A stretch of 43,855 nucleotides of DNA from Streptomyces griseus (GTDB taxonomy: Bacteria > Actinomycetota > Actinomycetes > Streptomycetales > Streptomycetaceae): positions 1-43,855 of the forward strand of contig MUNB01000135.1 of assembly GCA_002154345.1 (NCBI GenBank), in the 5' to 3' direction. Made by a program: the position numbers and the translations under genes. Below the pieces are notes generated by a model, which saw only the letters and a list, made by a program, of their open reading frames with translations, searched no databases and was not told where the DNA came from. Of the stretch, positions 26,363 through 43,605 are shown piece after piece; positions within the stretch are counted from its first letter, which is position 1; each line of letters starts with the position of its first letter.

Positions 26363-27733
26363 TCAGTCGAAGTGGGCGGCGAGGATCACGACGTCCTCGG
26401 CGGAATCGGTCCGGTCGAGGCCGTCGGGGAGCATCGTGCGCAGGACGTGGTCGGCGACGGCCGCCGGATCGTGCCGCCCCGCCTTCGGCACGGAAGCGGC
26501 GGCGGAGTGCAGCCGGGCGAAGGCGCGGTCCATCGGGTCCCCGGTGCGGCGCAGCAGCCCGTCCGTGTAGAGCAGCACCGTTTCTCCGGGCGCGGGGCTG
26601 AACTCCACGCTCGGCGCCTCCCAGCAGGCGAGCATCCCCAGCGGGGCGGAGAGCGTGGTCTCGACGAACTCGCAGCGCCGCTCGCCCAGCACCAGCGGCG
26701 GGGTGTGCCCGGCCCCGGCCAGCACGACCTTGCGGGCGGCGGGCTCGCAGTAGGCGAACAGGGCGGTCGCGGTCCGCGCGGGTTCGGTGAGCCGCAGCAG
26801 CAGTTCCAGGTCGGAGAGGACGGCGACGGGGTCCTCGCCCTCCATCACGGCGTACGCCCGCAGGCTGGCGCGCAGCCGGCCCATGGCGGCCATGGCGCTC
26901 GGTCCGGATCCGCCGACGGAGCCGACGGCGAGACCGAGCGTGCGGTCGGGCAGCGGCAGCGCGTCGTACCAGTCGCCGCCGCCCCGGGGGCCGGTGCGGT
27001 GCCGGGCGGCGAGCTGGACGCCGGAGATCCGGGGCAGCCGGCTGGGCAGCAACTCCTCGGCGACGGCGGCGACGTCCGCGCGGGCCCGCTCCAGCTCGAT
27101 CAGCCGGGCCAGGTGCTCGGTGGCGTAACGGGCGTAGAGGCCGGCGAGGTGGCGCTGTTTCTGTGCGGGCTCGGCCGGTTCGTCGTAGAGCCAGACGGCC
27201 GCGCCGAGACGGCCGGCCGCCTCGGAGGTGAGCGGGAGGGCGTAGCTCGCGGCGTAACCGAGCCGGACGGCGACATCGCGGTGCCGGGGGTCCAGGTCCT
27301 GCTCGCCGAGCAGGTCGGGGCTGGCGACCCCGTCGGCGGTGCCCGGCGCGCCGTCGAGGACGCGGCCGAGGGCGGTGGCCGGGCGGGGCACGGTCTCGAT
27401 GTGCCCGAGCTCGGCGTGGGAGAGGCCAAGGCCGAGGGTGGCGGAGGGGCCTTCGCCGTGCGCCGGTTCCAGAACGAGGAGTCCGCGCCGGGCGCCGACG
27501 AGGGCGGCTCCGGCGCGCAGCAGCTCGTTCAGGGCGTCGTCGAGGGTGCTCGTACCGGCCAGCCGCTCGGTGAGTTCGTGGAGGGTGGTGAGGTCCGAGA
27601 CCCAGCCCGCCAGCCGGTCCTGGATGAAGGCTCCGGGCGGTCCCGGGACCTCCGTCAGAGGAGCGGGAGTGTGCGTTGAAACCGGATCCTCTGGATCGAT
27701 TCCAGCCACTTTCGGCAGGTGTGGGGCGCTCAT
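26363..27733 (-). CDS. SpoIIE/PP2C-like protein with GAF-like domain and degenerate active site
   Basis: 456 aa. A GAF-like domain (about 45-215) is followed by a SpoIIE domain (about 235-455). The first metal motif GDWYD (253-257) and the C-terminal acidic pair region AEDVVILAAH are kept, as is LLYTDGLLRRTG. The motif that normally reads GDVxGHG is GSVGGSG (271-277): the metal Asp is Ser272 and the His is Ser276. Loss of phosphatase activity is therefore likely though not certain. ATG 27733 was chosen for its GGAAAG 9 nt upstream; in-frame ATGs at 27787 and 27850 lack such a site. It would act in partner switching with RsbW-like kinases. Confidence 0.85.
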   Translation of the reverse strand: MSAPHLPKVAGIDPEDPVSTHTPAPLTEVPGPPGAFIQDRLAGWVSDLTTLHELTERLAGTSTLDDALNELLRAGAALVGARRGLLVLEPAHGEGPSATLGLGLSHAELGHIETVPRPATALGRVLDGAPGTADGVASPDLLGEQDLDPRHRDVAVRLGYAASYALPLTSEAAGRLGAAVWLYDEPAEPAQKQRHLAGLYARYATEHLARLIELERARADVAAVAEELLPSRLPRISGVQLAARHRTGPRGGGDWYDALPLPDRTLGLAVGSVGGSGPSAMAAMGRLRASLRAYAVMEGEDPVAVLSDLELLLRLTEPARTATALFAYCEPAARKVVLAGAGHTPPLVLGERRCEFVETTLSAPLGMLACWEAPSVEFSPAPGETVLLYTDGLLRRTGDPMDRAFARLHSAAASVPKAGRHDPAAVADHVLRTMLPDGLDRTDSAEDVVILAAHFD

Positions 27734-28171
27734 GGCAGCCAGCTTTCCGACCGGTGCGATTCGTCGAATAGCATCGCAAACCCCCATGTGATTCTGCGCC
27801 ACTATCAATGCATCCACATGTACACGCACAAGTAACCCGATGTCCAGCATTGTCCCTTCGGGGACCGGGCGATTCGTGCTCTCCCAGTGTCGGTTAACTT
27901 GGCCAAAAAATGCACCCTATGGACGCTATTTGCGATCGACTGGGGCTGCTCAACAGGGGTACCTCCGGGGTCAAGTCGCCGGAGGAGCGTCATTCCGGGC
28001 ATGCTGGGTACGTAAACGGTGATGCGCGGGTGCGGTTGTGATCGCCAAGGAACCCGGCAGCGGGTTCCGGCGTCCTTACCCGTGAAGGTGACGCCCCGCC
28101 CCGGACGGCGGGGTTCCCACCGGGGACGGCGGGCGAGGCACATGCCACCCTCGCCCAGCGACCGCCGGCCC

Positions 28172-35023: not shown

Positions 35024-35113
35024 GGTGGGTTGCCCGAGCGGCCTAAGGGAACGGTCTTGAAAACCGTCGTGGCAGCGATGTCACCGTGGGTTCAAATCCC
35101 ACACCCACCGCCA
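35024..35113 (+). tRNA. tRNA-Ser(UGA)
   Basis: Acceptor GGTGGGT (35024-35030) pairs with ACCCACC (35103-35109); discriminator G and encoded CCA follow. Anticodon stem ACGGT/ACCGT with loop CTTGAAA gives TGA. T arm GTGGG-TTCAAAT-CCCAC. A long variable arm, as expected for serine. Its 3' end is the integration site of the element that follows; the tRNA is intact. Confidence 0.97.
35064..35113 (+). other. Probable att site (3' half of tRNA-Ser)
   Basis: AICE integrases recombine within the 3' part of a tRNA gene and restore it. The integrase gene starts its product 137 bp away and points at this tRNA. The exact core cannot be fixed because the other att copy lies beyond 43855. Confidence 0.5.
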
Positions 35114-35249: not shown

Positions 35250-36653
35250 CTACTCCTCGGCGCGAAGCCCCAGCTCAACGAGCCGGTTGGCTGCTGCCGA
35301 CCCGCCCTTGAGCAGCTTGGCGTAGAACCGGTAGAGCACCGCGAGGCTGTGGCCGGCGCGGTAGGCGGCCTCTACCGGGTCCATGCCGGATTTGATCCAT
35401 AGCGAGATCGCGGCGTGCCGAAGGGAGTACGGGACCTCTGCCAGTGCGGTCCGAAGCTCCTGCTCGCTGAGCACGACCTTCCTCGCCTCGCTCCAGACCT
35501 CGGAGTATTCGTTCGACGTCAGACGACCGCCGCGCACCGCCCGAAACAGCCGGCCGTCCGGTGCGACACCGAAGCGCGCGATGTGGGCGCGGACCATGCG
35601 CACGTATACCGGCGGGACGGGAACGGCCCGTACGGCCTTCCGCGCCCGATGCTTCAGTCCGCGCTCGTCGTGGGACTTCCCGCTGTCGGTCCAGCCGCCT
35701 CCGACTTCCGGGTGGCTCTCCGACACCAGCACTTCGCCCCACGCCTCCGGCTCGCTCTCCGGCGGCAGGATGAAGTCCGACTCCTTGAGCGCCGCAGCTT
35801 CGCCGGGGCGCGTCGCCACGTAGTAGACAGAGCCGTAGAACGCCTCCAGTTGCTCACCGCGTTCTCCCTGCGCGGCCACGGCGGCGAGCAGAGCGCGAGC
35901 GAGTCGAGGGCCGGGCACCCACCGGAAATCGACCTCGTCCGAGGCCTGCGGAGCGGCCCAGTCCACCGACAGGAACGGGTGGCGGGTGAGGAGGGCCCGT
36001 TCCTCAACCGCGTATCGGAAGGCGTTGCTCAGCACCATGCGCTTCCGGTTGGCGGTGTTCTCCGCCGCAGGCTTCCCGTTCAGGAGCCGGGAAAGGGCCG
36101 TGAGCGCCGCTCGCACGTGCTCCGGCTTCGCGGCTTCGTCCACCCTCATCGAATGCTGTCCAACCCACTCCAGTGCCTTCCGAATTTCGTCGGGAGGTTC
36201 TTGGGCTTCGGCGCGCGAGACGAGCTGATCCTTCGGCCCGTCCACGGCTCGGAACGCCCACTGGTACAGAGCGGCACGGAGGACGCGGACATCAGGCCGG
36301 GGACCGGGGCCGGTCGTGAAGACGGGTGTCACGACGGCAAGGGATTCCGCAATGCTCGCCCGGTGTTTCGCCGCCGCACCGGGCCACTTCATCAGTGAGT
36401 ACGCCTTGGCGTGCTCGAACCACGTCGGCATCGCGAGGGCAGCAAGCTCTTTCTCAGGGAGCCCAGTTTCCTCGTCGAACTGCTGCCCCGCCCGCAGAGC
36501 GGCCATGAGCTGGGAGCGGCGACCATCGGCCTGCGGTTTGAGGGTGAAGCTCTTCGAGTGCCCCTCGGCTCCAACGCGCCAGCGGACTTCCCAGGGCTTC
36601 GGCCGGCCTTTGCGCTGCCGGATGGACCAGATGACGACGTCGAAGGTGAGCAT
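35250..36653 (-). CDS. int: Tyrosine-family site-specific integrase
   Basis: 467 aa. The catalytic domain has Arg282 (VATRPGEAAAL), Arg412 in YSLRHAAISLW, His435 in AGHS and nucleophile Tyr444 in LYRFYAKLL. The position usually His before LxR (HxxR) is Tyr409, as in many actinobacterial AICE integrases. The N-terminal part contains the core-binding helices. It integrates and, with Xis, excises the element at tRNA-Ser. ATG 36653 has GGAGA 4-5 nt upstream. A tight hairpin lies just ahead of its ribosome site, between xis and int. Confidence 0.93.
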   Translation of the reverse strand: MLTFDVVIWSIRQRKGRPKPWEVRWRVGAEGHSKSFTLKPQADGRRSQLMAALRAGQQFDEETGLPEKELAALAMPTWFEHAKAYSLMKWPGAAAKHRASIAESLAVVTPVFTTGPGPRPDVRVLRAALYQWAFRAVDGPKDQLVSRAEAQEPPDEIRKALEWVGQHSMRVDEAAKPEHVRAALTALSRLLNGKPAAENTANRKRMVLSNAFRYAVEERALLTRHPFLSVDWAAPQASDEVDFRWVPGPRLARALLAAVAAQGERGEQLEAFYGSVYYVATRPGEAAALKESDFILPPESEPEAWGEVLVSESHPEVGGGWTDSGKSHDERGLKHRARKAVRAVPVPPVYVRMVRAHIARFGVAPDGRLFRAVRGGRLTSNEYSEVWSEARKVVLSEQELRTALAEVPYSLRHAAISLWIKSGMDPVEAAYRAGHSLAVLYRFYAKLLKGGSAAANRLVELGLRAEE

Positions 36654-36713: not shown

Positions 36714-36899
36714 TCAGGCGGCTTCCTCGTAGCTGGCGAGCCAGGCGTCAAGGTCGGCGCGGCGCACACGCACTTGGTGGTTGGGGAGCTTGATGAGCTT
36801 GGGCGCGAGGCCCCGGGCGCGCATGCGGTAGAAGGCGGCGCGAGACATGTTGAGTTCGGCGAGGACTTCGGGGAGCTTGAGCATTTGCGGGCGGGCCAC
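36714..36899 (-). CDS. xis: Excisionase (Xis), MerR-like helix-turn-helix
   Basis: 61 aa. KLPEVLAELNMSRAAFYRMRARGLAPKLIKL then NHQVRVRRADLDAWL is the compact winged helix-turn-helix of AICE/plasmid excisionases (HTH_17 type). Binds near att sites to direct Int to excision. GTG start at 36899 with AGGAGA 6-7 nt upstream. Located 60 bp ahead of int; separated from it by a hairpin. The iteron array lies just upstream, so its promoter may be controlled by whatever binds there. Confidence 0.9.
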   Translation of the reverse strand: MARPQMLKLPEVLAELNMSRAAFYRMRARGLAPKLIKLPNHQVRVRRADLDAWLASYEEAA

Positions 36900-36953
36900 G
36901 AGATCTCTCCTGACGGTGAGGTGGGCGGCGTGGTTGTCCGAGGTGTGGATTTC

Positions 36954-37171
36954 TGCGTCACCGCGTCACCTGCGTCATCTGGGGCTGTGACCTGCGGTTT
37001 TGGGTGACGCAGCGGAGTGGGAGTGCGTCACCCGTGCGTCACCTTCTGCGTCACCGGGTGACGTGGGGGTGACGCGGGTGACGCAGGGGTGACGCACGAT
37101 TCGGTGTCTGCGTCACCCCTGCCTGTGCAGGTCAGGGGCCGTTTTCCGTCCCTGGTGACGCAGGTGACGCA
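36954..37171. repeat. Iteron array of GTGACGCA / TGCGTCAC
   Basis: Ten exact 8-mers, at 36954, 37004, 37024, 37035, 37047, 37078, 37089, 37109, 37155 and 37164, in both orientations, plus single-mismatch copies at 36962, 36971, 37058 and 37069. From 37024 to 37089 starts are 11, 12, 11, 11, 9 and 11 bp apart, close to one helical turn. This is iteron-like and fits a replication origin bound by Rep, or an operator controlling xis. The rest of the 36900-37353 gap has an A/T-richer patch (TTAGGAAAAGAG near 37184) and a terminator for rep. Confidence 0.85.
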
Positions 37172-37285
37172 GACCTTCCCTACTTAGGAAAAGAGAAGGG
37201 GGGTGTCTGTAGTAGTGGCGGTGATCCTTCAGGCGAAGTGAGGGGCCCTTCGGGCACGCCTCTTGGGCGGCGTTGCCGCCGAACA

Positions 37286-37329
37286 GCAAGAGGAGCACCC
37301 GGCGGCGTGGCGCGGGGTGCTCCTCTTGC
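37286..37329 (-). terminator. Terminator downstream of rep
   Basis: Perfect 15-bp stem (37286-37300 with 37315-37329), 14-nt loop, 25 bp after the rep stop on the minus strand. Confidence 0.8.
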
Positions 37330-37353
37330 TTGTCCCCCGGTGACCGGGTGCGG

Positions 37354-38838
37354 TCAGAACGCCGCCGCCTGCTCCGGCTGCTCAGGGAGCGGCGGCCCGG
37401 GGCGGCGGGTCATTTCGAGGTAGCGGCCCGCTTTGGTGCGTCCGCTGTCGATGAGGACGCCCCGGGCGGCGAGGGTGGGTTGCAGGCGCTTGAGACGGTC
37501 GGAGAGCACCTTGCCCGTGGTCGGCCACCCTTTCGGCAGGGGGCGTAGCTCATCGCCGCTGTAGAGGCGGCTCAGGGCGTTCAGCCACTCGGTGGACGTC
37601 ATGCGCTGCTCGCCGCCGGGGTCGAGGGTGTCTGCGTGCAGCAGGACGGTCTGCGCGAGCAGGTCGCCTTCGATGACGTCGTCGTTCAGGTCGTCCAGGC
37701 TCACTCGGTACGCGTGCAGCGCTCCGAGCCCGGTGGCGACGTCGAGTTGGGCGCAGAGGTGGGCGAAGTCCGCCATCCGTAGATCGGTGGGGGTTTTTCC
37801 TTCGGCGGCCCGGACCTGGACCGTGAGGTCGAGGAGAGACCCGAGCACGATGGGCAGCACCTCTTCGTACTCTGCCCACAGCTCGGCTTCGGTCCGCCGG
37901 ACCGTGGGCCGCTCCAACCGCAGCGGCAGCAGTCGTTCCGCGAGGTCCGGGCGGATTACCCCGACGTCGATCCCGGTCAGCAGGAGCGGTCGGCGGTAGC
38001 GGGCCCGGTGCACGTCCCCGTCCGTGAACAGGGCGCGCTTCACGCTCTCGGCTCCGGTGACGATGCAGCACATGGCGTCGGACAGGTCCGGCGTCATGTG
38101 GCTCAGGTTGTCGAGGGCGGTGACCCATCCGGCGGCGACGGCCGCGATCAGGTTCTCCTCGTCCTTCGGGGCCCGGCGCAGGTCGCCGCTCATGCCTTCC
38201 ACGATTCGCACCAGCATCCGCCCCCCGGTGGACTTCCCCGCGCCCTGGGGGCCGGTGAGGAACGGGGCGGGGACGGGAACGCCTGGCCCGAGGCAGCCGA
38301 TGAGCCAGGCGATGGCGAGGCATTCGGTTTCGGCGTTGGCGAAGTTGCACAGCCGCATCAGAAGGTCGATGCCCTTGCCGTCGGTGTCCTTGGCCGGCAG
38401 GGGCAGTTCCCCAGTGAGCTGGGTGCGCCGCCAGCACACCTCTCGCGGGTCCGGCACGGTGATCTCCCACCCGGTGGGGTGGATACGGACCGACTGCCCG
38501 TCGGCGCGGCCGAGGTCGAGCCAGGTGGCCCCGTCGAAGCCAGGGGCGACGCGGATGTGTACGGCCTGGGTGGTCTCGGTCATCGCCAGCGCCTCGATCA
38601 GGTCCAGCGCCTCCTTCAGCGCGGTGCCGTTGAAGACGCCGACCCCGTCGCGGAACATGCCGACCATGAGTTCCTGCCGGTGGCTGCCCGTCGTGCCCTG
38701 CGAGCGGATCGGACGGGCGACGGGATGCCCGTTCTTCTGGGCGTAGACGGTGCCGTCGGCGGTGCGGAAGTACCGGAAGTGGGACTGCGCGTAGTCGCTG
38801 ATGACCTCACGCGCCGGGTTCTTCTCGTCCTCGGACAT
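37354..38838 (-). CDS. AICE replication protein, ATPase/helicase-like
   Basis: 494 aa. Walker A GPQGAGKST (196-204), a Walker B-like WVTALDNLSHM, and DVHRARYRRPLLLTGID further on, the arrangement of ATP-binding proteins paired with Prim-Pol in AICEs and phages (D5/SF3-like). N-terminal 190 residues include two mixed beta segments. C-terminus (about 400-494) may be a winged helix for DNA binding (STEWLNALSRLYSGDELRPLPKGWP). It probably unwinds or loads at the iterons downstream while the coupled Prim-Pol primes. ATG 38838 is one base after the Prim-Pol stop. RBS weak (GGGGA). Confidence 0.85.
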   Translation of the reverse strand: MSEDEKNPAREVISDYAQSHFRYFRTADGTVYAQKNGHPVARPIRSQGTTGSHRQELMVGMFRDGVGVFNGTALKEALDLIEALAMTETTQAVHIRVAPGFDGATWLDLGRADGQSVRIHPTGWEITVPDPREVCWRRTQLTGELPLPAKDTDGKGIDLLMRLCNFANAETECLAIAWLIGCLGPGVPVPAPFLTGPQGAGKSTGGRMLVRIVEGMSGDLRRAPKDEENLIAAVAAGWVTALDNLSHMTPDLSDAMCCIVTGAESVKRALFTDGDVHRARYRRPLLLTGIDVGVIRPDLAERLLPLRLERPTVRRTEAELWAEYEEVLPIVLGSLLDLTVQVRAAEGKTPTDLRMADFAHLCAQLDVATGLGALHAYRVSLDDLNDDVIEGDLLAQTVLLHADTLDPGGEQRMTSTEWLNALSRLYSGDELRPLPKGWPTTGKVLSDRLKRLQPTLAARGVLIDSGRTKAGRYLEMTRRPGPPLPEQPEQAAAF

Positions 38839-38839
38839 G

Positions 38840-39667
38840 TCACATCCCCAGAGCGGTACGGGCGTTGGACCACGCGTCGGCGCAGTGCCGGGCGGTTTCG
38901 CCCTTGGTCTGTGCGGCGGCGAACAGTTGGGCGGCGTGGGTGTCGGTGAGGCAGCCGCACCGGCCGTGCGTGGAGAGCACGGCGAGGAACGTCCGGTACA
39001 CCGTGGCGTGCACACCACCCGTCGCAGCCGTGATCCGCTGCGCGGCCATCGCGATACCGCGCTCCAGATAGACGGGGGTCCGGTGGCGGCACTCCCCACC
39101 ACCAGCCGGAACAGGCACGGAGACCGGCCGGACCGGTACCGGCTTCTTCACGACCAGCGCCCGTACCGTGTCGGGCAGGGTGGTCATGGTGCCGGTGCCG
39201 GGGCCGAGCCACCGGGCGTAGACCATGGTCGACTTGATGTCGACACCATCCCGGACCGCGTTCGCGGACGACATCGCCCCCTGGTAGATCCAGTGCTCGC
39301 CCCGCGTCGTGGGTACGGTCCGCGTAGCGGGCAGCGTCCGGCGGGCCCACGCGACCGCGTCGGCGTGGTCCAGGTCGACGACGGTCAGTCCGATACCGCC
39401 GGGGTGGTAGGCGACGGCCGCCGCCTGCTTCCACGCCGTCGCCCATGCGGGCCCGGTGATGACGTCGGTGTCGGTGGTGGCGGCGGCCCATGCGTGGCAG
39501 GGGCGGGGGCACTGGCAGGGGCCGGGGGTCTTCATGTTCGGCCGGCCACCGCACGAGGTGTACAGGCAGGCGGGGCAGTTGGCGAACGGGACCTTGCCCT
39601 TGTGCAGCGGCATGACGGGCACGCCCCGGGCGGCCAGGGCGAGGGCGGTACCCAGGTGGGCGTTCAC
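38840..39667 (-). CDS. Bifunctional DNA primase/polymerase (Prim-Pol)
   Basis: 275 aa. Archaeo-eukaryotic primase fold. Catalytic Asp98 and Asp100 in LTVVDLDHAD are intact; later GEHWIYQGAM...VDIKS...YARWLGPG completes the active-site set. A Cys-rich insert at residues 31-57 (Cys31, 34, 39, 51, 53, 57) probably binds zinc. It synthesises primers for element replication with the adjacent Rep ATPase. GTG 39667 overlaps the methylase stop (GTGA). Contrast with the chromosomal homologue at 28500, which lacks the Asp pair. No extra polymerase domain is fused. Confidence 0.9.
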   Translation of the reverse strand: MNAHLGTALALAARGVPVMPLHKGKVPFANCPACLYTSCGGRPNMKTPGPCQCPRPCHAWAAATTDTDVITGPAWATAWKQAAAVAYHPGGIGLTVVDLDHADAVAWARRTLPATRTVPTTRGEHWIYQGAMSSANAVRDGVDIKSTMVYARWLGPGTGTMTTLPDTVRALVVKKPVPVRPVSVPVPAGGGECRHRTPVYLERGIAMAAQRITAATGGVHATVYRTFLAVLSTHGRCGCLTDTHAAQLFAAAQTKGETARHCADAWSNARTALGM

Positions 39668-40389
39668 GCGGCTACCCCCATAGGACGGATCGCGATGAGC
39701 AGGGCGCGGCCGATGTGCTCGGAGAACGCCGGCGGGATGGCCTCGGTCAGTTCCTCGCGCACGTCGGTCCACGTGATGCCCATGGCTTCCTGCATCTCGG
39801 GGACGGTGGCCTTGCCGCCGCCGGACCCGTACGCGGCGACGTAGGGCCCGTCCCGGTAGACGCCGTGCCGGTACCCGCGCACGTACCCCCGGTGCTTCGG
39901 ATGCGCGGGCCGGGTGATGGTCCAGCCGCCCAATTCGAAATTCCGATGACGGAGGACTCCGAGTCCGAACATCTCGCCGCACAAGGAGAGGTCTTTGCGG
40001 ATCTCGGCGCGGCCGTTGGGCTGCTCGATGACGTACGGCAGCCCGGTCCGCTCCAGCAGTTGGCGGGTGGGTGCCACGAGGTCGTCATGGTCACCGCCCC
40101 AGCCCTGTGAGGCGTTGGTGCCCACGGTGAGGGCGCATCCGGCCTGGCACGGCGGCGAGGAGTGCACGGCGGTGAACCGGCGGATCTCCCCGGACGCGAT
40201 CAGGGCGGCGAGGTATCCGAGTGCGTCGGCCCGCACGAACGTGAAGGGGTAGTTCGGGCGGTCGACGATGTCGACGCCGATGACGTCGAATCCGGCGCGG
40301 TGGTAGCCGGTGGCCGCGCCGCCGGCGCAGCAGAACAGGTCCAGCAGTAACGGCCGCCGGCCGGGACGGTGGAGAGGGGCGAGGGTCAT
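39664..40389 (-). CDS. DNA (cytosine-5) methyltransferase
   Basis: 241 aa, compact. Motif I LDLFCCAGGAATGYHRAGF (AdoMet), motif IV SSPPCQ with catalytic Cys81, motif VI-like VIEQPNG (Gln in place of the usual Asn), RHRNFELGG for motif VIII, and IPPAFSEHIGRAL at motif X. The region between VIII and X is short, leaving a small target-recognition segment (RGYVRGYRHGVYRDG). No restriction enzyme is in the window, so it is a solitary methylase, probably protecting the element from host restriction or marking it during transfer. ATG 40389 overlaps the stop of the 66-aa gene (ATGA). Confidence 0.88.
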   Translation of the reverse strand: MTLAPLHRPGRRPLLLDLFCCAGGAATGYHRAGFDVIGVDIVDRPNYPFTFVRADALGYLAALIASGEIRRFTAVHSSPPCQAGCALTVGTNASQGWGGDHDDLVAPTRQLLERTGLPYVIEQPNGRAEIRKDLSLCGEMFGLGVLRHRNFELGGWTITRPAHPKHRGYVRGYRHGVYRDGPYVAAYGSGGGKATVPEMQEAMGITWTDVREELTEAIPPAFSEHIGRALLIAIRPMGVAA

Positions 40390-41429: not shown

Positions 41430-41514
41430 GCTAGACGCTAGGTCGCAGCTCAGGGCGGGTTCGGGGTGCTAGCGGGGGTGCTAGACCTAGCAGTCGGGGG
41501 TGCTAGGTCTAGCA
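41430..41514. repeat. CTAG-rich direct and inverted repeats downstream of tra
   Basis: CTAG occurs seven times in 82 bp (41431, 41438, 41469, 41481, 41487, 41503, 41509), although it is a rare tetramer in high-GC actinobacteria. GGGGTGCTAG repeats three times (41463, 41475, 41497). A 13-bp perfect inverted repeat (41479-41491 with 41502-41514, 10-nt loop) follows the tra stop and may be its terminator. The set could also be the operator of a transfer regulator. Confidence 0.7.
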
Positions 41515-41526
41515 GCGCTGCTGGGG

Positions 41527-43605
41527 TCAGGCGGCAGCCTTGTTCTGGTTACGGCGGGTGATGGCGGTGGTGATGTCGGCGCGGTCGATGCCGCGCCGGT
41601 TCTTGCCCTCGCCGGTGTCGGTCTGGCCCCAGACCTGCCCGGCCTTGATGCCGTGGGGCTTGAGGGCGGCGGTGACGTTCTCGCCCTTCCACCCGCCGTA
41701 GACATCCGGCAGCGCGGTGGCCAGGCGGGCGGCGATCCGCTCGCACCACACGGCCTTCTCGTCCGGGGCGATGACCGAGAGGACATCGGCCAGCACATCG
41801 GACTGCCCGGACTTCTCGGGCCCGTTGCCGATGGCGTGGCCGGTGACGTTGCCGTACTCCTCGCGGACCTGGCGGGCGCGTGCGGCGATCTGCTCGGCGG
41901 CCACCGCGTCCACGAACGCCGACGCCACGATGCGCGGATCGTCACCTTCGCCGGCCATCCAGCAGATGCCCCGGTCCGAGCGGGAGAACATCGTGGCCCG
42001 GTACCCGGCCTTGTACATCGAGGTGCCGAGCACCATGTCGTTGGCGGGCTGTCCCATGACCTTGAGGCAGAACCGCAGCACCGCGTTGGCGCTGATTCCG
42101 GTGGGCAGCGACTTCGCGTCGGGCCGCTGAGTGCCGAACAGGGTCACGATGCCGAGGGCCGGGCCTCGCTTGACGAGGTCGGTGCAGATGGCTTCGATCT
42201 CCTTGCCGTGTTCCTCGTGCTCGAAGGGCACCTGGCACTCGTCGAACCCGGCGACGATCGGGTGCAGCCTCAGGCTCTTGTCGCTGGCGAGTTCGGGGGT
42301 GACCTTGGATTCCGGGCAGCGGGAGCGCGGCAGGGACTTGATGACCTTCGCCCGCCGGCGCAGCTCTTCCTTCAGCTCCCGCAGGGCGTCCAGGACGTAT
42401 TCGATGTCGTCGTTCTCCTCGCCTGCCCTGTAGCGGTGGCAGACGGGTTCGAGGGCTCCGAAGTCGCCGGTGCCCTTGAAGTCGAACGCGTGCAGCTCGG
42501 CGCGCGGGTCGAGTGCGGCGATGAGGAGGAACAGCCGCATCAGGAACGTCTTGCCCATGCGGGGGATCGAGCCGACGACGACGGCGGCGAACATCAGCGT
42601 CACGGACACGTCGCGCATGCGCTGGTCGTTGCCGAACACCACCGGCTTGAACAGGTCCACCTGCCCGGTCTTGAGGAGGGGCCAGGCGGGTTTGGTGGTC
42701 TCGTTCATCGGCTTGTCCCCGACCCACAGGACCAGGCGTCCTTCGTGTTCGGTGGGGTCGGGGGAGGGCCAGACGCAGCCGACCTTGCGGCGCAGCCCGG
42801 ACGCCAGCGGCTTGCGGGCCTCCATGATGTCCTCGGGTGTGACGCCGTAGGGGAGGTCGAGGTCGGCGCGGTAGCCGGGGCCGTCGCGGACGATTTCGCT
42901 GGTGAAGCGCAGCCCGTTCATGTCGCCGCCCTTCTTGATGGCGGCGCTGATCCGGCTGTTGCCGATGGAGTCGAGACCGCGCAGCACGATCGACCCCGTG
43001 AGTTTCTGTACCTCCGTCTTCAGGACGGCGGGGCCGATGACCGGGGCGTCGGGCTGCTGACCGGCCATACCGAGGAGCAGAACCCCGCCGGCGGCGAACG
43101 CGTACATGAGCGCGGGGGCCATGACGTAGAGCCAGAGGGCGAAGCCGACGCCGAACACGGCGGCGACCAGGGTGACCAGGCCGCGCAGCCGCACCCGCCC
43201 GGCCCGCAGCCGGGACAGGCGCATGTACTCCTCCACGTCCTCCGCACGGACGGCCGCCGCCCGCAGCGGGGCGGCTTCACGGTCCCAGACCCACCGGTTG
43301 GTGGTTGCGATGAACCGGCAGGCTCCCCGCGGCGACATCAGCGCGAGACGACCGGCGTACACCGGGAGCCGCACGCCGTGGAACAGGGCGCTGTATCCGG
43401 CGTTCGCGCCGGCGTGGCGGGCGGTGGCGGTGAAGTCGCGCCGGTCGGTCAGCCAACCAGCCAGGACCGGCTTGCGCTTCTCCACGCTCACCTTCGGCTC
43501 CGGCAGGGCGGGGTTGTCGACCGCGACCGGCGCGGTGGTCTCGTGGTCGTCGTCCAGGTCGGGGACCGGCCGCAGATGCGCGGCCGGGGCGGCGGTGTCC
43601 GTCAT
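41527..43605 (-). CDS. tra: FtsK/SpoIIIE-like Tra DNA translocase (conjugation)
   Basis: 692 aa. Two or three hydrophobic helices near residues 140-180 (LVTLVAAVFGVGFALWLYVM, MYAFAAGGVLLLGMAG) anchor it. The motor domain has Walker A VGSIPRMGKTF (Lys352) and a Walker B-like HPIVAGFDECQVPF; LFGTQRPDAKSLPTGI is the typical FtsK downstream motif. The C-terminal 80 residues form a winged-helix-like DNA recognition region (DVYGGWKGENVTAALKPHG). It pumps double-stranded element DNA between mycelia, the distinctive mode in Streptomyces. AGGAGGA lies 10 nt upstream of ATG 43605. The largest gene of the element. Confidence 0.92.
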   Translation of the reverse strand: MTDTAAPAAHLRPVPDLDDDHETTAPVAVDNPALPEPKVSVEKRKPVLAGWLTDRRDFTATARHAGANAGYSALFHGVRLPVYAGRLALMSPRGACRFIATTNRWVWDREAAPLRAAAVRAEDVEEYMRLSRLRAGRVRLRGLVTLVAAVFGVGFALWLYVMAPALMYAFAAGGVLLLGMAGQQPDAPVIGPAVLKTEVQKLTGSIVLRGLDSIGNSRISAAIKKGGDMNGLRFTSEIVRDGPGYRADLDLPYGVTPEDIMEARKPLASGLRRKVGCVWPSPDPTEHEGRLVLWVGDKPMNETTKPAWPLLKTGQVDLFKPVVFGNDQRMRDVSVTLMFAAVVVGSIPRMGKTFLMRLFLLIAALDPRAELHAFDFKGTGDFGALEPVCHRYRAGEENDDIEYVLDALRELKEELRRRAKVIKSLPRSRCPESKVTPELASDKSLRLHPIVAGFDECQVPFEHEEHGKEIEAICTDLVKRGPALGIVTLFGTQRPDAKSLPTGISANAVLRFCLKVMGQPANDMVLGTSMYKAGYRATMFSRSDRGICWMAGEGDDPRIVASAFVDAVAAEQIAARARQVREEYGNVTGHAIGNGPEKSGQSDVLADVLSVIAPDEKAVWCERIAARLATALPDVYGGWKGENVTAALKPHGIKAGQVWGQTDTGEGKNRRGIDRADITTAITRRNQNKAAA

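Follow-up and report, generated by a model that had tools for sequence, protein, structure and literature searches.

Downstream of a putative replication gene (rep) in Streptomyces griseus, and just upstream of a small xis-like gene, lies a 218-bp array of short repeats, which raises the question of which protein reads these repeats, and for what. The array is part of contig MUNB01000135.1, of which we analyzed the whole stretch of 43,855 nucleotides (the window). A first-pass annotation of the same DNA had proposed that the repeats are iterons forming the replication origin of an AICE.

Read leftward, the genes around the array follow the order TraB/FtsK-like, Prim-Pol, Rep, array, xis-like helix-turn-helix and integrase-like (Table 1), and thus int, xis, Rep/Prim-Pol and an FtsK-like Tra stand together as they do in AICEs, an assignment made partly from gene order. 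The window's right part is taken up by the int side of the element, which has inserted into tRNA-Ser(TGA); the tRNA attachment site is duplicated as well, as a 60-bp exact repeat. The second copy of this tRNA 3' end is on a different contig (C645) and is taken as the other end of the AICE, the far end of which therefore seems to lie on another contig. Because their Pfam matches fall below the curated cut-offs, the integrase, Rep and TraB are named partly from gene order and annotated homologues; the Rep protein itself gave only a sub-threshold VapE-like match (E 0.097). The likely start codon of xis is the GTG at 36897-36899, with AGGAGAG upstream, and the stretch used for its domain scan began at 36914. 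An ORF at 39664-40389 with DLFCCAGGAATGYHRAGFDVIGVD near its start looks by eye like a DNA methyltransferase, and Pfam and NCBIfam searches with it returned no match.

Table 1. Features of the element and its repeat array (window coordinates; a point marks features given without a strand)
Feature	Position	Strand	Basis or remark
tRNA-Ser(TGA), attachment gene	35024..35113	+	35052-35111 exactly duplicated at C645:8621-8680
Tyrosine-integrase-like gene	35250..36653	-	Weak PF00589 match, E 0.048, below cut-off
xis-like helix-turn-helix gene, 61 aa	36714..36899	-	HTH_17 2.7e-8, AlpA 3.5e-5
Iteron array, 14 copies of (G/A)TGACGCA or close variants, mixed orientations	36954..37171	.	Extended imperfect dyad, centre near 37060-37067
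Outer cluster, xis side, three iterons	36954..36978	-	36954 exact; 36962, 36971 variants
T-box TGACCTGC, first of inverted pair bracketing inner iterons	36988..36995	+	Conserved; Rep-independent
Inner iteron	37004..37011	+	Repeat search
Inner cluster, three iterons	37024..37054	-	37024, 37035, 37047
Inner cluster, four iterons	37058..37096	+	37058, 37069 variants; 37078, 37089 exact
Inner iteron	37109..37116	-	Repeat search
T-box, second of inverted pair (GCAGGTCA on + strand)	37127..37134	-	Conserved
Outer cluster, rep side, two iterons	37155..37171	+	37155, 37164
A+T-richer conserved stretch, rep-side edge of array	37178..37193	.	Smoothed aligned AT 0.47-0.63 vs mean 0.345
Hairpin, 20-nt arms, 3' of rep, probable terminator	37285..37330	.	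Conserved among loci
Rep, putative AAA+ initiator helicase, 494 aa	37354..38838	-	Walker A GPQGAGKST aa 196-204, by eye
rep segment	37405..37611	-	Predicted structure, block means of pLDDT 82-92 over core
Codon of Rep K469, predicted wing tip, covaries with first iteron base	37432..37434	-	Covariation and prediction
Prim-Pol primase-polymerase	38840..39667	-	PF09250 E 4.2e-10, above cut-off
FtsK/TraB-like transfer gene	41527..43605	-	FtsK_SpoIIIE E 0.0015, below cut-off

A repeat search recovered exactly what had been counted in 36954-37171, ten perfect GTGACGCA octamers and four variants with one or two mismatches (at 36962, 36971, 37058 and 37069); two further two-mismatch matches, at 37001 (overlapping another site) and 37145, were left uncounted. 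The octamer occurs 12 times in the whole window, ten of these inside the array, against a shuffle mean of 2.55, and 12 copies were reached in none of 100 shuffles. The densest 8-mers of the window are all words of this repeat (12, 10, 8 and 7 per 218 bp), and unrelated 8-mers do not exceed 4. With variants counted, seven copies lie on each strand, and dyad arms at 37023-37043/37077-37097 and 36963-36983/37150-37170 share one centre near 37060-37067. Between the array and the likely xis start downstream of it lie 54 bp, and 182 bp separate it from the end of rep at 37354.

The earlier description of many repeat starts 11 bp apart proved loose, as only four of the 13 neighbor steps (8, 9, 33, 20, 11, 12, 11, 11, 9, 11, 20, 46 and 9 bp; 8-12 bp within clusters) are exactly 11 bp, whereas the helical phasing behind it is real. 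Vector strength in the window array is 0.67 at 10.5 bp (p = 0.0002, 5000 random placements), and over 81 homologous arrays its mean peaks at 0.66, also at 10.5 bp, with p < 0.01 in 83%; these p values are rough, because the null model places sites at random without a minimum spacing and the 81 arrays are kin by descent.

The first-pass annotation had suggested looking for matching repeats in related elements, and these are plentiful. Rep matches (E <= 0.001, weaker and partial relatives counted) occur in 124 of 295 Streptomyces genomes, and the nearest relatives are nearly all from this genus; a phage collection yielded a partial match in one phage, Microbacterium phage Zeta1847 (two records), and viral contigs yielded one locus. 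For comparison we used the best-scoring 80 of 341 Rep relatives from genome contigs, which are not a random draw. A similar array, with 10-15 TGACG core sites, lies 3' of rep in all 80 of these best-scoring loci, so that multiple short repeats immediately follow the initiator gene throughout. When orientation strings were compared crudely, 73 of the 80 fit the window's array better than its reverse and six tie; the sole exception, L068, carries an insertion in its array.

These loci bear directly on whether the array might be an operator or switch for xis and int, bound by the xis-like helix-turn-helix protein or the integrase, a second role that the first-pass annotation had also proposed and that the 54-bp distance to xis would favor. 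Downstream homologues of the window's xis turned up in just 17 of the 80 loci and of its integrase in 14, with at least 2.2 kb of downstream sequence available in 78; the array is nevertheless present in the 63 and 66 loci, respectively, where they were not found. The array thus travels with rep and not with the window's xis and int. Three circular plasmids (L089, L090 and L091), with Rep proteins at 68-69% identity, carry the same module followed by parA, with a recombinase gene about 2 kb further on. Here the module is inverted relative to rep: the alignment to the minus strand covers some 290-300 bp at 72-74%, and the step sizes follow those of the window's plus strand nearly one by one. 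An origin would account for a module that flips yet keeps its place next to rep more readily than a leader or promoter would. A search of the array for sigma-70-like promoters gave none; Streptomyces promoters often differ from this type. Given this, and because the repeats covary with Rep (below), we consider an xis/int switch very unlikely and do not retain that part of the earlier proposal.

With increasing distance from the window's Rep the repeat sequence changes while the position holds. At about 60% Rep identity (pFP12 and two other plasmids) the repeats are GGGGGACGCA, and at about 35% (pSTS2 and pFP11) they are AGGGACGCAC, in both cases still at rep; pFP11 carries eight GGGACGCA at 27632-27877. 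The distant relatives L114 and L115 have a different repeat, ACCGTCCA/G. In eleven others (L116-L126, 27-36% identity) the 700 bp following the reading frame contain no obvious array, and none was seen at L113 (an incomplete match containing a stop), in the linear-plasmid relative L097, or in the archaeal and Methylobacterium relatives L099 and L100. L098 has a loose set only, with 11 TGACG/CGTCA cores in about 550 bp and no 8-mer present in more than four copies.

Within the close set, the first base of the iteron varies. Counting the window, 35 of 81 loci are of G type (GTGACGCA), 31 of A type (ATGACGCA) and 15 are mixed. When every Rep column was compared with this base, column 469 stood out with a mutual information of 0.745 bits, the next Rep column reaching 0.36; none of 300 shuffles attained 0.745, and the null maximum was 0.28. 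The first such run omitted the 15 mixed loci, which the later mutual information and tree tests included by means of a 0.5 threshold. Arginine, lysine or histidine at 469 goes with G-type repeats and S, F, Y, M, A or Q with A-type repeats (45 loci basic/G, 31 other/A, four other/G and one basic/A, such that the rule fails in five of 81); lysine often accompanies mixed arrays. On a DNA tree built from rep codons 1-430, and so without residue 469, repeat type changed 16 times. A tree-aware sign test gave 11 supported independent pairs, in which 469 changed in step with the repeat type in a mean of 9.5 and against it in none (median p 0.002, range 0.002-0.02), while six control columns had median p values of 0.06-0.63. 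An equivalent pair test on the protein tree had only four supported pairs, so that p 0.05 was unreachable.

The rule also held for most loci outside the discovery set, at 17 of 20 in one sample (39 loci less 17 duplicates and two unparsed) and 28 of 34 in another (40 less six duplicates), or 45 of 54 together, with a tie at L246 (R, 6:6) scored as G. Eight of the nine failures combine W465 and a non-basic 469 with G-type repeats, and the ninth, L249, has lysine with A-type repeats. The proposed wing-tip code seems to have a second solution among loci with W465 and a non-basic 469; W465 alone is insufficient for G type, because some W465-S469 loci are A-type. The combination of W465, a non-basic 469 and G-type iterons was observed at L069, L074, L079, L086, L105, L109, L281, L294, L303, L305, L306 and L309.

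The covariation of the first iteron base with one Rep residue points to the Rep helicase as the reader of the repeats. The first-pass annotation had named both Rep and Prim-Pol as possible binders; the case for Rep has grown stronger, and that for Prim-Pol has not. The Prim-Pol gene adjoins rep, and the SCCmec enzyme CCPol-MP is reported to prime efficiently at its putative origin (cited parts of PMC7581432), either of which could suggest that the array is a place where Prim-Pol binds or primes. Against this, none of 178 variable Prim-Pol columns tracks repeat type beyond chance (best mutual information 0.161, reached by 282 of 300 shuffles). As a control we took two of three plasmids in which a similar Prim-Pol occurs without a Rep match, NZ_CP107792 and NZ_CP109084. 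Their Prim-Pol proteins are 70.5% and 68.6% identical to the window's over about half its length, the proteins in the Rep position gave no significant BLAST match to the window's Rep, and their arrays are TTCTGTCAG-like and ACTACCCGCA-like, unrelated to that of the window. Hence a similar Prim-Pol beside an unrelated Rep comes with other repeats; by this comparison the repeats follow the initiator rather than its neighbors, and a Prim-Pol site seems highly improbable. Further iteron families were seen after other Rep types at L101 (7719-8019, TTCTGTCAG-like), L102 (7656-8280, ACTACCCGCA-like) and L114 (ACCGTCCA).

The same reasoning was applied to TraB, since the TraB of pSVH1 is reported to read repeated 8-bp motifs through a winged helix (cited parts of PMC3583192) and the array could accordingly be a transfer locus (clt) of 8-bp recognition repeats. 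The repeats do not follow TraB: of the 66 loci with sufficient sequence upstream, 44 showed similarity to it (tblastn, 1e-3), at below 50% identity in 32 of these 44, yet the array is similar. Nor was TraB similarity found in the sequenced stretches examined of the three plasmids, which nonetheless carry a similar array, and the repeat orientation is mixed. We regard a clt at this position as exceedingly improbable. Elsewhere in the window, a 22-bp unit, twice repeated (CGGGGGTGCTAGACCTAGCAGT), lies just past the traB-like stop at 41473-41515 and is a possible clt or operator.

A structural model of Rep is compatible with its role as the reader. The full-length model was poor (mean pLDDT 40.6) and was set aside, and the C-terminal part was folded separately. 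The predicted C-terminal domain (mean pLDDT 79) consists of helices followed by two strands, with residue 469 in the turn between the strands, that is, at the tip of the wing; the initiator is thereby predicted to possess the C-terminal winged helix DNA-binding domain expected of an initiator of the SaPI/PICI and pFP11 kind. A Foldseek search with this part returned no PDB match at E <= 0.001 and weak winged-helix matches only. P-loop and SeqA matches in a PDB sequence search (E 0.003 or worse) were taken as chance or generic.

This arrangement has reported counterparts. By its C-terminal domain the SaPI Rep is reported to recognize iterons that directly follow its gene, and in SCCmec the C-terminal domain of Cch2 is reported to bind downstream repeats at the putative origin (cited parts of PMC7581432). 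As here, these systems and the PICIs pair an initiator helicase carrying a C-terminal DNA-binding domain (predicted in our case) with repeats directly 3' and a primase alongside. They differ in that the window's Rep is only marginally VapE-like and its Prim-Pol is of archaeo-eukaryotic type, and in that our array is a mixed-orientation dyad of about 14 sites with T-boxes and an A+T-rich part that lacks clear flanking by two sets. In PICI origins, two iteron sets are described as flanking an A+T-rich region (cited parts of PMC6092414), whereas here the A+T peak is weak and sits at the rep-side edge, where we infer a candidate melting site at 37178-37193.

Counterparts are also known among Streptomyces plasmids. 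The earlier remark that origins of Prim-Pol AICEs are poorly described agrees with the cited parts of PMC3218068, but iteron origins adjoining rep are known from Streptomyces theta plasmids (PMC3583192 in part, citing Zhang et al. 2008). The RepA of pFP11 (NC_006911) is reported there to bind its iterons. Like the window, pFP11 has a homologous Rep (35%), an upstream gene annotated as primase/polymerase and a downstream GGGACGCA array with a T-box inside; it differs in repeat sequence and in being a free plasmid, and the published repA and iterons may not equal the gene and array compared here. Similarly, pWTY27 has a RepA and a Prim-Pol-like RepB, and its opposite-strand 8-bp and 7-bp repeats form a long inverted repeat bound by RepA, although the repeat is GTGGGAAC and its RepA is likened to ours by description alone (cited parts of PMC3583192). 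SLP1/RepPP-type AICEs (SCO4617/SCO4618) were likewise compared by description, the cited parts of PMC3218068 giving no origin sequence.

Iteron arrays often also control copy number. Rep might therefore bind the repeats mainly for incompatibility, copy control or autoregulation, with replication starting elsewhere. The arrangement of pRN1, whose replication is reported to begin at a stem-loop downstream of the replication gene, would allow this; it resembles ours in having a Prim-Pol, a helicase, a winged helix and an origin in that position, and differs in its fused protein and in a stem-loop origin described without iterons (cited parts of PMC4234260). In the window iterons are the main feature and a large iteron-free stem-loop is not what is seen, though the inverted arms reach 21 nt. 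Moreover, replication of pWTY27 is reported to require, along with repA and repB, a 300-bp non-coding segment that contains its iterons (cited parts of PMC3583192). By this parallel, a mainly regulatory array appears quite improbable. Taken together, the comparative evidence supports the first-pass view of iterons bound on one face of the DNA at an AICE origin, and we suggest that the array is very probably a Rep-bound, iteron-type replication origin of a Prim-Pol/Rep AICE, of the SaPI/pFP11 kind.

A second element recurs inside these arrays, the T-box CTGACCTGC. At least one TGACCTG is present in 82 of 91 origin regions, a few outside the two usual places, and GCAGGTCA is found in 66 of 81 AICE loci; among the three plasmids with inverted modules, only L090 has an exact copy. 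A set of 40 Prim-Pol loci taken from other genomes yielded 25 arrays. Of these, 19 passed a filter that required both orientations and a distance of 1.2-3.5 kb from the locus centre; none of the six that failed has a T-box. TGACCTG occurs in 18 of the 19, against 2.05 expected under random placement, and the commonest 7-mers found de novo in them are CAGGTCA and AGGTCAG; these arrays represent seven iteron classes by our own grouping, some of which are perhaps related. Prim-Pol was considered as the T-box reader and dropped, since 20 RepAM (PF12307) loci without detectable Prim-Pol peak alike downstream of rep: a home-made Prim-Pol profile that recovered 37 of 40 positives matched none of the 20, and TGACCTG is present in 13 of 20 in each of the first two 250-bp bins right after rep, compared with 0-4 of 20 in other bins. 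The box is therefore tied neither to a single Rep family nor to Prim-Pol, and on this pattern of occurrence the simplest reading is that it is probably a host-factor site.

The T-box alone is not diagnostic of an origin, as a search for the inverted-pair pattern in 26 Streptomyces genomes also matched places that look coding- or tRNA-like by eye. The dnaA region, with three copies in 4.2 kb, was uninformative. A short A/T run often stands within a few bases after CTGACCTGC (many of L164-L223, with unrelated Rep families), and inverted pairs bracketing a DnaA-box-like TTGTCCACA- or TATCCACA-like sequence were seen at G409:C190:4809-4947 and G395:C1:8227734-8227872. As a tentative generalization, which we hold to be possible rather than probable, integrative and plasmid origins in Streptomyces might be two-layered, with replicon-specific iterons read by a variable Rep wing, and a CTGACCTGC box that is common to unrelated Rep families whether Prim-Pol is present or absent, frequently occurs as an inverted pair, and would let one host protein couple the elements to the cell's replication machinery.

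A plausible mechanism can be put together from these observations. Rep would recognize (G/A)TGACGCA through its C-terminal winged helix, with residue 469 at the wing tip reading the first base, as the covariation suggests. The roughly 14 sites on one helical face of a large dyad could, by analogy with SaPI Rep and Cch2, load Rep as two opposed oligomers, which may then open nearby DNA, possibly the A+T-richer stretch near 37178-37193. After excision of the element, the opened DNA would offer Prim-Pol a single-stranded template for priming, again on the SaPI Rep and SCCmec Cch2 model, and the Rep-independent CTGACCTGC box, which is conserved, would be bound by a host factor.

Among the papers listed by searches of the open-access literature, none was recognized as describing this origin, the 469 covariation or the T-box, and the bare repeat strings brought up mainly work on aptamers, primers and virology among the matches listed. 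As far as these listings show, iterons beside an initiator helicase gene are of a known kind, and what is new is the origin of this AICE type, the link between residue and base, and the shared CTGACCTGC box; the pFP11 study (Zhang et al. 2008) may contain part of these points. In PLE satellites, initiator and origin are known to covary by module swapping (cited parts of PMC8263062); the link seen here, between one residue of the wing and one base of the iteron, is finer-grained.

For a widespread type of Streptomyces AICE, these results single out a specific origin that can be tested. By naming the protein and the residue expected to set origin specificity, they predict which elements could share or compete for origins. 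If CTGACCTGC is indeed a host-factor site, it would also provide a handle on how these integrated elements enlist the host in their copying ahead of transfer.
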